Positions 121-44,703 of a stretch of DNA of 64,000 bases are shown here, one piece after another. The stretch is from Prevotella nigrescens (GTDB lineage Bacteria; Bacteroidota; Bacteroidia; Bacteroidales; Bacteroidaceae). The first letter of the stretch is position 1. Each line of letters begins with the position of its first letter. The translations under genes and the position numbers were made by a program. The stretch spans positions 312,501 through 376,500 of the forward strand of contig NZ_CP133465.1 in assembly GCF_031191185.1 (NCBI RefSeq), written 5' to 3'. The notes beneath the pieces were generated by a model. The model made no database searches, was not told the DNA's origin, and saw only the letters and a list, made by a program, of their open reading frames with translations.

Positions 121-183
121 AAAAAGCCTTCTTGTATTTGTAAAAATAATTCTGCTAAAACGTGATAATTGTGCTTTGGCATT

Positions 184-271
184 GCGAAAGCGGCTATTTT
201 ACGGCGTAAAACAACCGTTCTTACAGTTCCAAAGAGCCGTTTTTGGAATGCAAAATAACGGATTTCATAAT
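184..271 (+). repeat. Four-unit 22-bp intergenic array, copy A
   Basis: Four consecutive imperfect units of exactly 22 bp (starts 184, 206, 228, 250). Each has AAA near its start and a T-rich run about 11 bp later around a short C/G core. The same 88-bp arrangement recurs at 8147, 14088 and 35256. A further looser unit precedes it (gtgataattg..., 162-183). It lies between the secDF terminator and the left-edge promoter, and no credible gene covers it. Confidence 0.85.
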
Positions 272-437
272 ATATTGATAAACAAAAAGTTAGACAATAG
301 CTACTTTTGCAGAATATTTTTACAGTATCATTCTCTCCCTTTCGTCCGTAAAATATCTTCTATTCGTCAAAAGTCCACTGCCCCACTCCATCAATGGAAC
401 AAGGCAAGAGCAACCCCATCAGACAGGAAAAGTAAAA

Positions 438-7971: not shown

Positions 7972-8146
7972 CGTTAATTCTCTTATGGTAAACTATTATA
8001 TACGAATAGGAAAAAAGAAAAAGGGTGTTTTATAACGATTACATACGACGAAAGACATATACTTCTGCCTTTTATTCAGCAGCGAAAAACAGTCCTTGGT
8101 TGTAAAGAAAAACTCCAGCATAAAACAGCAACGGTGTTCTGATGTT

Positions 8147-8234
8147 GCAATAACGGCTATTTTGCGATGCGAAACCCACTGTTTTGTCGTGTTAAAGCCA
8201 CGTTTTTGGACTGCAAAATAACGGATTTTGCAAT
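8147..8234 (+). repeat. Four-unit 22-bp intergenic array, copy B
   Basis: Units start at 8147, 8169, 8191 and 8213. The last unit, gcaaaataacgg then attttgcaat, differs from the last unit of copy A (at 250) at only two positions. It lies in the roughly 430-bp gene-free stretch between the pdxS promoter and the sucCD terminator, where I see nothing else. Confidence 0.85.
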
Positions 8235-8353
8235 ATACTGTAAGTCAGACGATTATGCCATGGTTTCATTTATGAAAGATAACGACAGTTTCCTACGTTT
8301 TTAGATGGCGGCAAGAAAGGGGTAATTGTGCCCTGATTGGAGTAAAAACACAA

Positions 8354-13569: not shown

Positions 13570-14565
13570 AGGATCTTCTCTTTGTTTTAGTTATGGTTAG
13601 ATTCCGCTGTAAAGGTCTATATAATAATTGAATTGGCAAAATATTTTTTGATTAAAAAGTTAAAGAAAAATGATATGCAGGAAAATTGTAATTCACATTA
13701 TGTGTAGTATTTTGTCTTAATACTTTTATTATAATATCAAAAGGAGAGCTTATAAGAGCAAAACGTTTTAAATGCCATTGATTTATGTCAAGTTTGTAAG
13801 TTGCATTTTTTTTGTATTAATGTTTCAAAATCTGTCTAAAATTAGGAACAAAAGCACTTATGTCCTTCAAATAACATTTATGGGGCAAATCAAAATGTCA
13901 AAAATAAAGTATAGATTCTCCAATCTCAGTTTAATTGAAATTATGGTATCTAAAGTTGGGGAGTCCTTTAACCCAAACTGATTATTAAACAGCCATCTTG
14001 CCGTTTTGTATTCTTGGCATCGTTTCTCATCATTCTCTATTCTCTTGTTGGTACTTTATTGAATTGCCGTTATATCTATTTCGGAATGTAAAACAGCCGT
14101 TTTTGGAGCACAAAACAGCCTGTTTTGCGTTGCAAGACAATGGGTTTTGGAATTCAAAATAACGGGTTCTATAATTTATTGGAAATCTTGCAGTTACAAA
14201 GCAGGGGATTTCTATGGATTTATTAGTGCTCTCAAGGCTTATTCTTTATGTGGAAAATGATATCTTATTGTCTAAGACAACCAATGGAAAAAGGAGACAG
14301 ATAGATATTAAGATTGAAGAATGTACGTGTCTGTAACAAGTTTAGTGCTGTGGGAAACGGCTCGGAATGATTGTTAATTCGATGCCTCACCGTTCTTTTA
14401 AGGTAGATTGGTTCTTGTCATTCAATATCTCTTATCAACAGTTTGCCTGCCGTCTTCTTTCAACGTAGTTCATTACGTTTTAGAAAAGACGGCAGACCAT
14501 CTGCCTAAATATTAATGATGTGTACTGGACTTAACCGAAGGTGCGTTTATAAACCAATAGTTCCG
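13570..14565. other. Gene-free stretch between korA and the LRR gene
   Basis: About 1 kb, AT-rich, without a convincing gene. It holds the 22-bp array copy C (14088-14175) and a compound hairpin at 14447-14485 (arms ctgccgtctt and aagacggcag with an inner aacgta/tacgtt stem), next to a small ggcaga/tctgcc hairpin. A 69-codon ORF at 13772-13981 has no start context or recognisable features and is probably chance. Confidence 0.6.
14088..14175 (+). repeat. Four-unit 22-bp intergenic array, copy C
   Basis: Units start at 14088, 14110, 14132 and 14154; each runs caaaa/taaaa, a C/G core, then gttttg or similar. The last unit again ends ...aacgggttctataat, parallel to copies A and B. Same orientation as the other copies. 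Confidence 0.85.
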
Positions 14566-21637: not shown

Positions 21638-21861
21638 TTTGTTTTCGTTTTATCCTACAACTCTAAGGTCTTTCAGAATTAGCTTATTGAAACTTCCAAA
21701 AAATCAGACATCAGTTTTGAACGTGACTGATATCTAAAACGAGTGTGACAGATCTAATTTTTTGCTTATTAACACACAATAAGAGACTGATTGTACCGAT
21801 GAAACTGTTTATATATTCGTGTAAATGTGTAGTTCTTTCTCTGTTTTATCCAAATAGATTC

Positions 21862-31211: not shown

Positions 31212-31318
31212 AACGAAAGATACAGAACAGACTCCAAAAAGATACCGAGCGAACTCCAAAAAGATATCGAGCAATCTTCAAAAAGATATCGAGCAATCTG
31301 CGAAAAGATATCGAGCGA
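31209..31318 (+). repeat. 22-bp tandem array between sufB and the extra exported gene
   Basis: Units of exactly 22 bp start at 31231, 31253, 31275 and 31297, each with AAAAGATA followed by a tCGAGCR motif; a degenerate fifth copy (aaagatacagaacag) occupies 31209-31230 and overlaps the sufB stop. Because 22 is not a multiple of 3 it cannot encode a repeat peptide. Same period as the A-D arrays but a different sequence. Confidence 0.85.
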
Positions 31319-35150: not shown

Positions 35151-35627
35151 CAGATAGTCTTTGAGCATTTAAATTTTGACGATTGTCATTCGTCGAAATC
35201 GTTCTTGTTTTGTAAAGGATATTTCCTTAAAAAGTGATAACTGCGCTTTGACATTGTAAAAGCGGCTGTTTTGCACGGTAAAAGCGTAGGTTTTGCATCG
35301 CAAAAGAGCCGCTTTCGCAATGCCAAATCGAAATTACCGTTTTCTCAACGAATTATCTTTACAAAACCGAGGCGGTTTTTCCACGTGTTGGCTGAAAGTT
35401 TCTAGAAATCCTAGATAAACTAGAACTACTATATAAACCCTTTCTTATCCAGTGCCAGGAACGCAACAAACCACACCCCAACTTGCTCCAACATTATCCT
35501 CAAGCAACAGAAAAGGAAAATTATATCCCGTCTTATTTCCACTAAACAATAACCTTCAACCGCCCGTTCTTTTCTGCTTTCCACCAAATTAATTCGGCAA
35601 AAGACTTGCTATCCCTATTAAAATTAG
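35151..35627. other. Gene-free stretch between sufS and leuS
   Basis: About 480 bp that holds 22-bp array copy D (35256-35343) and an interrupted palindrome near 35401-35430 (ctagaaatcctag). No gene is supported. The leuS promoter box lies at the end. Confidence 0.6.
35256..35343 (+). repeat. Four-unit 22-bp intergenic array, copy D
   Basis: Units start at 35256, 35278, 35300 and 35322, for example gtaaaagcgg then ctgttttgcacg. The preceding sequence (gtgataactgcgctttgaca) closely matches the sequence before copy A, so the copies share more than the four units. Confidence 0.85.
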
Positions 35628-41254: not shown

Positions 41255-43278
41255 TAAAAAGAACATATATACTTGTACTCTCTTGCTTGCTTTCCATACT
41301 TCCGCTCCGCAGTTTCGGCAGTGGCATAGGCACGTGGAAAAACTTTCTGGCATACAGCAATGTGCAGTGGATAGAGAAGGGTGGCAATGTGCTTTACGTA
41401 CTTGCATCGAACGACCTCTATGCTTACAATGAAAAGAACAACAGCATTCAGACCTTCGACAAGGTAAACGGACTGAATGATATCGACATTGACTTCATCG
41501 CATGGAACAATGTTGCCAAACGCTTGGTTATCGTTTATGCCAACCAAAACATAGATTTGCTCACCCAGAAAGGCGAAATCATCAGTTTGCCCGACTATTA
41601 CAGAAAGGCGATGACAGACAACAAGAAGGTAAACAGCCTTTATACCGAGGGGGCATACTGCTACGTTTCAACAGGATTTGGCGTGTTGAAGATAAACGTT
41701 GGCAGGGCTGAAATCAGCGATACCTACAATCTTGGCTTCAACGTAGACTATACTTACATCGAAGGAAACTATATTTACGCTGCAAGCAGCGAACGAGGAC
41801 TCTACCGAGCCTTGCTTTCCGACAACCTATTGGATAGAAACAATTGGAAAAGAACAGGCAACTTTGTGGCACAAAGCAAAACCATTGCACCCGAACTGAT
41901 GGAGAAAGTGAAGCCGTTACTGCCAGGTGGGCCCAAGTACAACCGCTTTTTCTTTATGCAATATCTTAACGACCGCCTCTATACAACGGGCGGAGCGTTC
42001 GAACCGGGCGCAGTAGGACTAAACCAGGCAGGCACCGTTCAGGTGTTGAAGAAAGACGAATGGACCATCTTCCAAGACGAATTGGACAAGATAACGGGCT
42101 ACTACTATCACGATATGAACTGTTTGGCAGTAGACCCACGGAACCCCGAACACGTATTTGTGGGCGGACGAGCAGGCTTATACGAGTTTCTGAACGGCAA
42201 GTTAAAGAAGTATTTCAACAAAGACAACAGTCTTCTGCGCCCCACGGTTTATCAAGGCAGAGAGTTAGGCAACGACTATGTGCCAGTGCAAGGATTGGTT
42301 TTCGACCGCAAAAACAATTTGTGGATACTGAACAGCGGTACCAAAACAACTTCATTGCTGAAGCTTTCGCCCGACGGAACTATGACCGACCACTCTAAAC
42401 CAGAGCTGATGAACAAGGGATTAAGCCTGCAAGTGATGCGCCGACCCATTCTCGACAGCCGCGGTTTAATATGGTTTGTAAACAGCCACTACGAAGCACC
42501 GGGCTTGTTCTGCTATAATCCTGAAACCGACAAGCTAAGCGTTTTCCATAATTTCAAGAACCAAGACGGCTCTTCCATTATGGTTATACAAATGCGTTGC
42601 GTGCTGGAAGATGCCTATCAGAACCTTTGGATAGGCACGAACGTAGGGCCGCTCCGACTCACTACCGAGCAGATGCAAAACCCTTCAGAGGCTATTTTCG
42701 AGCAGATAAAGGTGCCACGCAACGACGGAACAAACCTTGCCGACTACCTATTGGCAGGCGTAGACATTTCGTGTATGGCGATTGATGGCGGCGGACGCAA
42801 GTGGTTTGGCACGAATGGCAACGGTGCTTACCTCATCAGTGCCGACAATATGAAGCAGGTGAAACACTTCTTGAGCAGCAACAGCAAGCTCCTTTCAAAC
42901 AACATAGAGAGCATTGCCATCGACGACAAGACGGGTGAAGTGTTCTTCGGAACAGACAAAGGACTTTGTTCGTATATGGGCGATGCAACAAAACCGTCTG
43001 ACAATCCGGGCGGCGATGACACTTATGCCTATCCAAACCCCGTCCGCCCAGATTACAAAGGGCTGATAACGGTAGTTGGCTTAGCCTACAATTCCGACGT
43101 GAAAGTAGTTACCACCAACGGCATACTTGTGGCACAGGGCACGAGCAACGGCGGTACATTCACGTGGGACGGCAACGACTTAAACGGAAAACGTGTGGCA
43201 TCGGGAATTTATATGGTGCAGACGGCTGACCAAGAAGGCAACAACGGAACAGTATGCAAGATAGCAATCGTGAACTAA
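41251..43278 (+). CDS. porZ: PorZ-like type IX secretion system protein
   Basis: 675 residues with a signal peptide (MIKRTYILVLSCLLSILPLRSFG). The mature part has the WD-like beta-propeller repeats of PorZ: FLAYSNVQWIEKGGNVLYVLAS, then repeats such as MAIDGGGRKWFGTNGNGAYL and IAIDDKTGEVFFGTDKGLCSY. The last 80 residues form the sorting-type domain (AYPNPVRPDYKGLITVVGLAY ... DLNGKRVASGIYMVQT). PorZ helps attach A-LPS to T9SS cargo at the cell surface. The assignment rests on this pattern and on the T9SS cargo elsewhere in the window. Confidence 0.82.
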   Translation: MIKRTYILVLSCLLSILPLRSFGSGIGTWKNFLAYSNVQWIEKGGNVLYVLASNDLYAYNEKNNSIQTFDKVNGLNDIDIDFIAWNNVAKRLVIVYANQNIDLLTQKGEIISLPDYYRKAMTDNKKVNSLYTEGAYCYVSTGFGVLKINVGRAEISDTYNLGFNVDYTYIEGNYIYAASSERGLYRALLSDNLLDRNNWKRTGNFVAQSKTIAPELMEKVKPLLPGGPKYNRFFFMQYLNDRLYTTGGAFEPGAVGLNQAGTVQVLKKDEWTIFQDELDKITGYYYHDMNCLAVDPRNPEHVFVGGRAGLYEFLNGKLKKYFNKDNSLLRPTVYQGRELGNDYVPVQGLVFDRKNNLWILNSGTKTTSLLKLSPDGTMTDHSKPELMNKGLSLQVMRRPILDSRGLIWFVNSHYEAPGLFCYNPETDKLSVFHNFKNQDGSSIMVIQMRCVLEDAYQNLWIGTNVGPLRLTTEQMQNPSEAIFEQIKVPRNDGTNLADYLLAGVDISCMAIDGGGRKWFGTNGNGAYLISADNMKQVKHFLSSNSKLLSNNIESIAIDDKTGEVFFGTDKGLCSYMGDATKPSDNPGGDDTYAYPNPVRPDYKGLITVVGLAYNSDVKVVTTNGILVAQGTSNGGTFTWDGNDLNGKRVASGIYMVQTADQEGNNGTVCKIAIVN

Positions 43279-44264: not shown

Positions 44265-44703
44265 ACCACTGCAAAAATATCCCACAAAAATTTTCTTTCC
44301 CAAATTACTTACAGGTCAATAATAATTTATCTACACGTAAAGAAATATTTACTTACACGTAGAAAAATATTTATTTACGTGTAAGTAATTCTTTAAACGA
44401 ACGATTTCGCAACTTTTAAGCATCGCATTTACTAAACCTTTTGCCAATATTCGCATAGAAAAAATGCAGCTAAAACATTAATATTCATATTTTATTTAAT
44501 TCCTAATTATCTTTTGTTATATAGGCATTAATTGCTAACTTTGTCAAAATTAATAGTTCTCAGAATAAAGATAATTCTATGAAAAATTTTAAAATGTTTT
44601 ATAACACTATTTCAATAGACTGCGGAGAATAGTGCGTTAACTACTCTTTAAAGGCAATAGAAATTAACACATAAATAAGTTAAGAGCAATGAATAATATT
44701 AAA
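44265..44703. other. Gene-free region left of the IS1380 element
   Basis: 440 bp of AT-rich sequence with the array at 44311-44398. No convincing gene. Sequence resumes after the element at 46317. Confidence 0.55.
44311..44398 (+). repeat. 22-bp tandem array downstream of the acyltransferase gene
   Basis: Four units of 22 bp start at 44311, 44333, 44355 and 44377, built around acacgtaa and an aaatatttac-type core. The best pair is 44333 and 44355. An 11-bp perfect inverted repeat (acttacacgta / tacgtgtaagt, 44351-44361 and 44376-44386) is embedded in it, so the array can form a hairpin with a 14-nt loop. Confidence 0.75.

Follow-up and report, generated by a model that had tools for sequence, protein, structure and literature searches.

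Arrays of palindromic 22-bp units in Prevotella nigrescens form the core of a dispersed ~186-bp element and recur, with different palindromes, in related species

The stretch of DNA analysed here, referred to as the window, comprises 64,000 nucleotides of Prevotella nigrescens (contig NZ_CP133465.1, positions 312,501 to 376,500). Four gaps between its genes each hold an array of four palindromic 22-bp units on the forward strand, as placed by unit alignment and matrix scoring. Copy A (180..267) adjoins secDF; copy B (8143..8230) lies between pdxS and sucD; copy C (14084..14171, placed by matrix scoring, L068) separates a korA-like gene from an LRR gene; and copy D (35252..35339) has an aminotransferase-V gene on one side and a leucyl-tRNA synthetase gene on the other. 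The original prediction had described four arrays of exact 22-bp period, all of them intergenic, and this description is correct with the unit starts set at 180, 8143, 14084 and 35252, which is 4 bp less than first given. Leave-one-array-out matrix scores were 70.0, 54.5, 67.5 and 57.1 for copies A to D, against a maximum of 3.8 in shuffled controls (15 shuffled windows for each array); the four arrays are real, exact in their 22-bp period and far above chance. The A-runs occupy unit positions 7-10 and the T-runs positions 18-21, which gives the distance of about 11 bp initially proposed, and the last unit of copies A, B and C is, again as first described, nearly the same (CAAAATAACGG followed by RTT). 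Tandem Repeats Finder, with scores down to 30, recovered no more than a fragment of a single array (35256-35297) out of the four.

The near-palindromic nature of the units, the position of each array in the middle of a longer element, and two further 22-bp arrays of other sequence in the window (31216-31316 and 44305-44392) had all been missed. The array at 44305..44392, identified by repeat search, is a palindromic array of a third type with a unit around TTTACRYGTAAA, and no second locus of this kind was seen in 0.52 Mb of sequence searched from the same genome. The repeat at 31216-31316 consists of 4.6 tandem copies of 22 bp with 87% matches and fills the gap behind a 481-aa ORF. It is unaligned in P. 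pallens, where the gap measures ~107 bp against ~223 bp in the window; not being clearly palindromic, it may be a young array. In addition, comparison with P. pallens identified a degenerate relic of a P. pallens-type array (CTGATATCTAAAACGAGTGTGACAGAT) on the forward strand at 21704..21757 (ends approximate), opposite which P. pallens carries the full array.

The genome that contains the window consists of 6 contigs totalling 2.68 Mb, of which two measure 2.11 and 0.57 Mb. Among named relatives, in a collection that may lack its own species, P. pallens and P. falsenii are the closest in SucD. Because the units have diverged too far to be caught by an exact pattern, a first pattern search for them returned no matches. 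With a profile built on the four copies, 200 matches were obtained in this genome, and those listed merge to at least 89 places, a lower bound since 150 of 1444 candidates were scored. The original prediction had regarded the arrays as a repeat family and proposed a genome search for more copies at the same period as the check; with the search made, the family stands.

When the 89 copies were stacked, conservation was seen to reach well past the arrays. The arrays are the cores of a dispersed, mostly intergenic element of ~186 bp, in which the four palindromic units are accompanied by two arms whose ends (TGTAAAGATAATTC / GAAAAATATTTACA) look imperfectly inverted. Both ends were recognised in 52 of the 89 copies, 38 of which are 186 bp long, and one or both were unrecognised in the remaining 37. 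As judged with a simple ORF caller, 80 arrays lie outside ORFs of at least 130 aa and 9 lie inside. Within the window, end recognition places the full element of copy A at 139..324 on the forward strand (186 bp, ends TGTAAAAATAATTC and AGAATATTTTTACA; L066) and that of copy B at 8101..8287 on the same strand, in the pdxS/sucD gap (187 bp; L067). The left arm of copy C was unrecognised. Copy D is a hybrid of two left arms that forms an imperfect, unstranded palindrome (35211..35363; L069), its arms at 35207-35283 and 35291-35367 being 71% complementary. Synteny with P. pallens breaks in the gap that holds copy D (35158-35542), and the two flanks, which are apart from each other in P. pallens, both have an array within 0.3-0.8 kb there, a pattern suggestive of recombination between repeats.

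The original prediction knew of no described element of this form. This was probably wrong, because the ~186-bp element fits PINSR, described as a 188-bp intergenic, highly amplified, non-coding repeat of P. intermedia and its relatives (PMC4755523, 2015). By its size, siting and hosts, these rather than the published consensus figure being the basis of comparison, the element is very probably PINSR. Both are intergenic, non-coding and present in high copy number; 177 and 184 copies are reported for two P. intermedia strains (PMC4755523), compared with at least 89 places here among the 150 of 1444 candidates scored. PINSR-type unit pairs were detected in P. falsenii and P. disiens, as in the published range, and also in P. 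pallens and P. aurantiaca, neither of which is given as positive in the text of PMC4755523. One detail differs: a PINSR copy lies downstream of tnaA in strain ATCC 25611 (PMC4755523), whereas in the window's genome no PINSR-type copy was found within 1.5 kb of the sole tnaA-family match, itself below the family cut-off; this may be a strain difference. The text of the PINSR paper, which left the function and source of the repeat unexplained, has no mention of a 22-bp unit, uses 'palindrom' for CRISPR only, and describes the repeat as having no terminal inverted repeats (PMC4755523), whereas the ends here look imperfectly inverted. The open-access PMC literature, as searched, yielded no account of palindromic arrays of 22 bp in Prevotella. 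What is new here is the palindromic units, their fixed 22-bp spacing, and their recurrence across the family with species-specific palindromes.

The unit of the window's genome reads TGCAAAA, seven variable bases, TTTTG. Column conservation is 0.89-0.97 for the AAA and TTTT positions and 0.32-0.63 for the seven core columns. The claim that all units share one orientation is weak for palindromic units, whose 7-bp cores were found both ways round. Despite widely differing cores, the best unit placement was 22 bp in 265 of the 267 steps within the 89 copies, although these were found with an array model whose detection may favour intact spacing. Length deviations affect 2 of 267 array steps, whereas among the 52 elements measured end to end, 14 deviate in length (p 0.0015 with all 14 attributed to the arms). 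The corresponding figure in P. pallens, 22 bp in 169 of 169 steps, arises largely by construction, since arrays there were found by 22-bp chaining.

The 22-bp layout is common to much of the family. Among 58 loci with Prevotellaceae-type titles, gathered by SucD and totalling 1.0 Mb, 45 windows showed self-similarity at lag 22, while other lags from 12 to 60 gave 0-7, except for the harmonic at 44 (20). Lag-22-positive loci made up 29 of these 58, compared with 1 of the 22 other loci in the sample. Significant palindromy was detected in 31 of 46 lag-22 arrays and in 16 of 46 tandem repeats of other lags (p 0.003), leaving 15 lag-22 arrays without it; for lag-23 arrays the figure was 3 of 8. 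Arrays of the class hold 2-7 palindromic units, mostly 3-5, exactly 22 bp apart, and the unit differs between species: CAGATATCTG in P. pallens, GTTCCA..TGGAAC in H. loescheii, and GGGAA..TTCCC in P. multiformis and others. Several related species thus each carry numerous arrays of this one layout, built on a different palindrome. A strong 23-bp array in P. falsenii (L148 11003; 0.92 self-match), ~130 bp after sucD, breaks the 22-bp rule of the group. Palindromic arrays with a 23-bp period were also observed at two Bacteroides loci (L208 349 and L212 431), and these, together with the BrickBuilt element discussed below, hint at a 22/23-bp class across Bacteroidales.

The distribution of the families was examined by searching 11 genomes for unit pairs with up to 3 mismatches; forward counts are given, because palindromic patterns match both strands over much the same sites. 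The H. loescheii-type pair occurred 547 times in its own genome, 4 times in H. shahii and in none of the other nine. The P. multiformis type was found 146 times in its own genome, 7 times in H. loescheii, once in the window's genome and in none of eight others, and the P. pallens type 262 times in its own, 13 times in the window's genome and in none of nine others, with one reverse match in P. multiformis. The palindromes of these three relatives are thus nearly confined to one of the 11 genomes each. The 13 forward P. pallens-type matches in the window's genome, with 14 reverse ones, fall at 9 places (control 0). The PINSR-type pair is more widely spread, with 181 forward matches in the window's genome, 143 in P. 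pallens (148 reverse), 568 in P. falsenii, 313 in P. aurantiaca and 152 in P. disiens; reversed-pattern controls gave 2, 0, 102, 0 and 8, respectively, which makes the P. falsenii figure the noisiest of the five. The six more distant genomes had 0-1 forward matches, or 0-3 on both strands. Together, these counts indicate that the families coexist and that lineages have amplified different ones. PINSR is described as absent outside the intermedia/nigrescens group, but the array model, run on 60 genomes at E ≤ 1e-4, matched 16, namely the window's own, G017 strongly and 14 weakly, some of the last with 20-42 weak matches. In P. aurantiaca, identical PINSR-type matches at 41258, 44910, 48562 and 52541 of one contig (G062:C148), spaced by 3652, 3652 and 3979 bp, suggest that the array belongs to a longer segment duplicated in tandem.

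The variable cores are not independent of one another in the PINSR-type arrays. In 57 of the 89 copies, two units have 7-bp cores that are reverse-complementary at 6 or 7 positions, against 26 copies expected and a maximum of 36 in 500 permutations. The exact complements stem from 10 distinct core pairs, and in the lower-scoring half of the copies alone the per-pair excess is weaker. P. aurantiaca behaves similarly, with exact complements in 15 of 84 adjacent core pairs, taken from the best 100 of 616 matches after merging (3.1 expected, maximum 10); 56 hand-picked rows of the same species had given 12 against 2.4. H. loescheii, in contrast, has no such excess (0 exact against 0.9 for adjacent units, 2 against 0.7 two apart), and in P. 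multiformis it is direct unit copies that are in excess (10 exact adjacent against 2.9). Core complementarity is accordingly a property of PINSR-type arrays and was rejected as a general rule; it perhaps derives from template switching or from hairpin selection.

Complementary cores in the PINSR-type arrays of two species would fit an action as RNA, in which the transcribed arrays form hairpins in 3' UTRs and serve to end transcripts or make them stable. Predicted folding is strong (mean z -4.58 in the window's genome, with 75 of 89 copies below -2; -5.21 in P. pallens, with 48 of 50), though any palindrome array folds well. The siting near gene ends in the window's genome, based on simple ORF calls, fits this too: 34 of the 89 copies lie in convergent gaps and 12 in divergent ones (p 0.0016), and in co-directional gaps the array is nearer the upstream stop in 33 of 43 cases (34 against 10, and 33 of 45, with a laxer ORF cut-off). 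The same bias is weak or absent elsewhere, with 16 convergent and 8 divergent of 49 in P. pallens (p 0.15; nearer the upstream stop in 14 of 25), 7 and 3 of 19 in H. loescheii, and 1 and 3 of 15 in P. multiformis, where 6 arrays overlap an ORF. Moreover, between co-directional genes the copies of the window's genome favour neither orientation (17 of 45, p 0.14), and GT and AC core mismatches are equally frequent (12 each), which leaves no sign of RNA wobble; a strand-specific RNA function is disfavoured on both counts. The P. pallens unit is a palindrome without a loop, which makes one hairpin per unit unlikely and a dimer site natural. Since no Rfam family reached its gathering score in the window, and since the H. 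loescheii and P. multiformis cores behave as described, an RNA-level role is unlikely.

A second possibility, put forward in the original prediction, is that the arrays are curved DNA recognised by HU or a similar nucleoid protein through shape and not sequence. In a wedge model, PINSR-type copies are indeed predicted to be curved (mean z 3.90, compared with 0.11 for control DNA), and to that extent the proposal holds for this family. However, P. pallens arrays of like geometry are uncurved (z -0.04), so curvature cannot be the shared function and was rejected as such, and several families are not built from A-tracts (GGGAA..TTCCC, GTTCCA..TGGAAC). A shape-read nucleoid site is accordingly very unlikely to explain the class.

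It had also been suggested that the arrays are a small mobile repeat. That they are a dispersed repeat is likely; transposition is a proposal only. In 52 copies no clear target-site duplication and no consistent offset were seen (longest shared flank word 5.71, against 5.47 ± 0.14 in permutations), in what is a weak test with fuzzy edges: weak conservation leaks to about -16 and +26. The inverted ends are identical at a mean of 9.8 of 14 positions against 6.3 for the best slid control, with ends that were chosen by motif and with the same fuzzy edges. No clean empty site was found. None of 10 proteins at four loci with close-set copies, six of them between two copies, is a transposase by Pfam; they comprise a phosphoglucomutase, HmuY, a BspA-type LRR protein, an NUBPL-type NTPase, a DUF2436 protein and five without a Pfam match.

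Two known systems offer parallels. REP/BIME elements with RAYT likewise have short palindromic units, high copy number, extragenic siting, species specificity and several units per element (PMC2817692, PMC3733652), but here the units keep a fixed 22-bp tandem register between fixed arms, lack GTAG in their consensus and mostly occur without RAYT. RAYT (PF01797) is absent from 9 of the 11 genomes, including the window's (0 matches) and every one of the seven that gave over 100 forward unit-pair matches, and was rejected as a present mobiliser in those nine; the REP mobiliser is thus not the general answer. H. pleuritidis and P. sp. oral taxon 376 have RAYT, and their loci also carry lag-22 arrays. 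The BrickBuilt MITE of Porphyromonas gingivalis resembles the present element in having a short repeat in tandem flanked by a leader and a tail, small inverted ends and an intergenic position (PMC4596501). It differs in its 23-nt unit, its 1 to 22.8 repeats and its IS5-like ends such as GAGACC (PMC4596501), compared with 22 bp, mostly 3-5 units and ends of the form TGTAAA..TTTACA.

Arrays of different sequence can occupy the same gap in sister species. P. pallens arrays of other sequence are situated in the gaps of window copies B and C and of the PINSR copies of L083 and L119, and the positions of pattern hits point to a fifth shared gap (L097/L289). Of the 5 other species that could be assessed for the gap upstream of korA, 4 have a lag-22 array there; the P. 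ihumii array is weak (0.58), and those of P. falsenii and P. disiens are themselves PINSR-like. Such sharing might mean that the site itself is selected for a host function, each species keeping an array in the gap while its sequence is replaced. The sample is, however, small and partly chosen for array presence; no array was seen in P. pallens at the site of copy A; two P. pallens arrays face gaps of the window's genome without PINSR, one of them in the next part of the L085 locus; and behind sucD a lag-22 array fills the gap in no more than 8 of 58 loci. Tolerance of the gaps could by itself account for the sharing, and a position-conserved function seems improbable.

At L085 itself P. pallens has a decayed PINSR with the complementary cores GCATTTG and CAAATGC. 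This remnant, the PINSR-type pairs of P. pallens and the P. pallens-type pairs of the window's genome are compatible with arrays that are purely selfish or inert repeats, their 22-bp period an echo of their origin with no present reader, and PINSR core complementarity produced by replication template switching in hairpins; the direct unit copies of P. multiformis agree with this. It is less easily reconciled with half-sites and spacing that stay fixed while cores diverge, and one 22-bp rule in families of unrelated sequence is hard to obtain without a common reader. A purely selfish or inert nature is on these grounds unlikely.

The 22-bp period and the palindromes are common to the families, as is the siting in most of them. 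Since curvature and core complementarity are unshared and the RNA evidence is contrary, a dimeric protein bound every two turns is the simplest common reader. It is moderately likely that the arrays are non-autonomous, REP/BIME-like elements whose units are serial, in-phase putative sites for a fast-diverging dimeric DNA-binding protein. Each palindromic unit would be a candidate site for one dimer, and 22 bp, about two turns, would place successive dimers on one face of the helix and allow side-by-side loading. The specificity of the protein would differ by lineage, each lineage having amplified its cognate family, and the elements, tolerated mainly behind gene ends as their placement in the window's genome suggests, would be copied or maintained by the candidate protein or by an element encoding it. 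Counting against this dimeric-protein model are PINSR-type core complementarity beyond what a pure operator would need, the 15 lag-22 arrays without significant palindromy, the failure to find a clear target-site duplication or a clean empty site, the absence of RAYT from 9 of the 11 genomes, a detection model that may favour intact spacing, and a gene-context bias that is faint in P. pallens and not seen in P. multiformis. More tentatively, it is possible that throughout Prevotellaceae a fast-diverging dimeric protein reads intergenic arrays through their fixed geometry while the sequence turns over by species, acting chromosome-wide or to propagate the elements.

Overall, PINSR becomes one member of a family-wide class with a 22-bp rule, which makes its function and source testable. 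If the protein model is true, the partner would bind the arrays of one species and not those of another, with a specificity that tracks the unit sequence. One array, copy D, lies at a point of chromosomal rearrangement between this genome and P. pallens. Beside a candidate protein reader, the arrays may help the host in chromosome organisation or at transcription ends, and they could serve as species markers for oral Prevotella.
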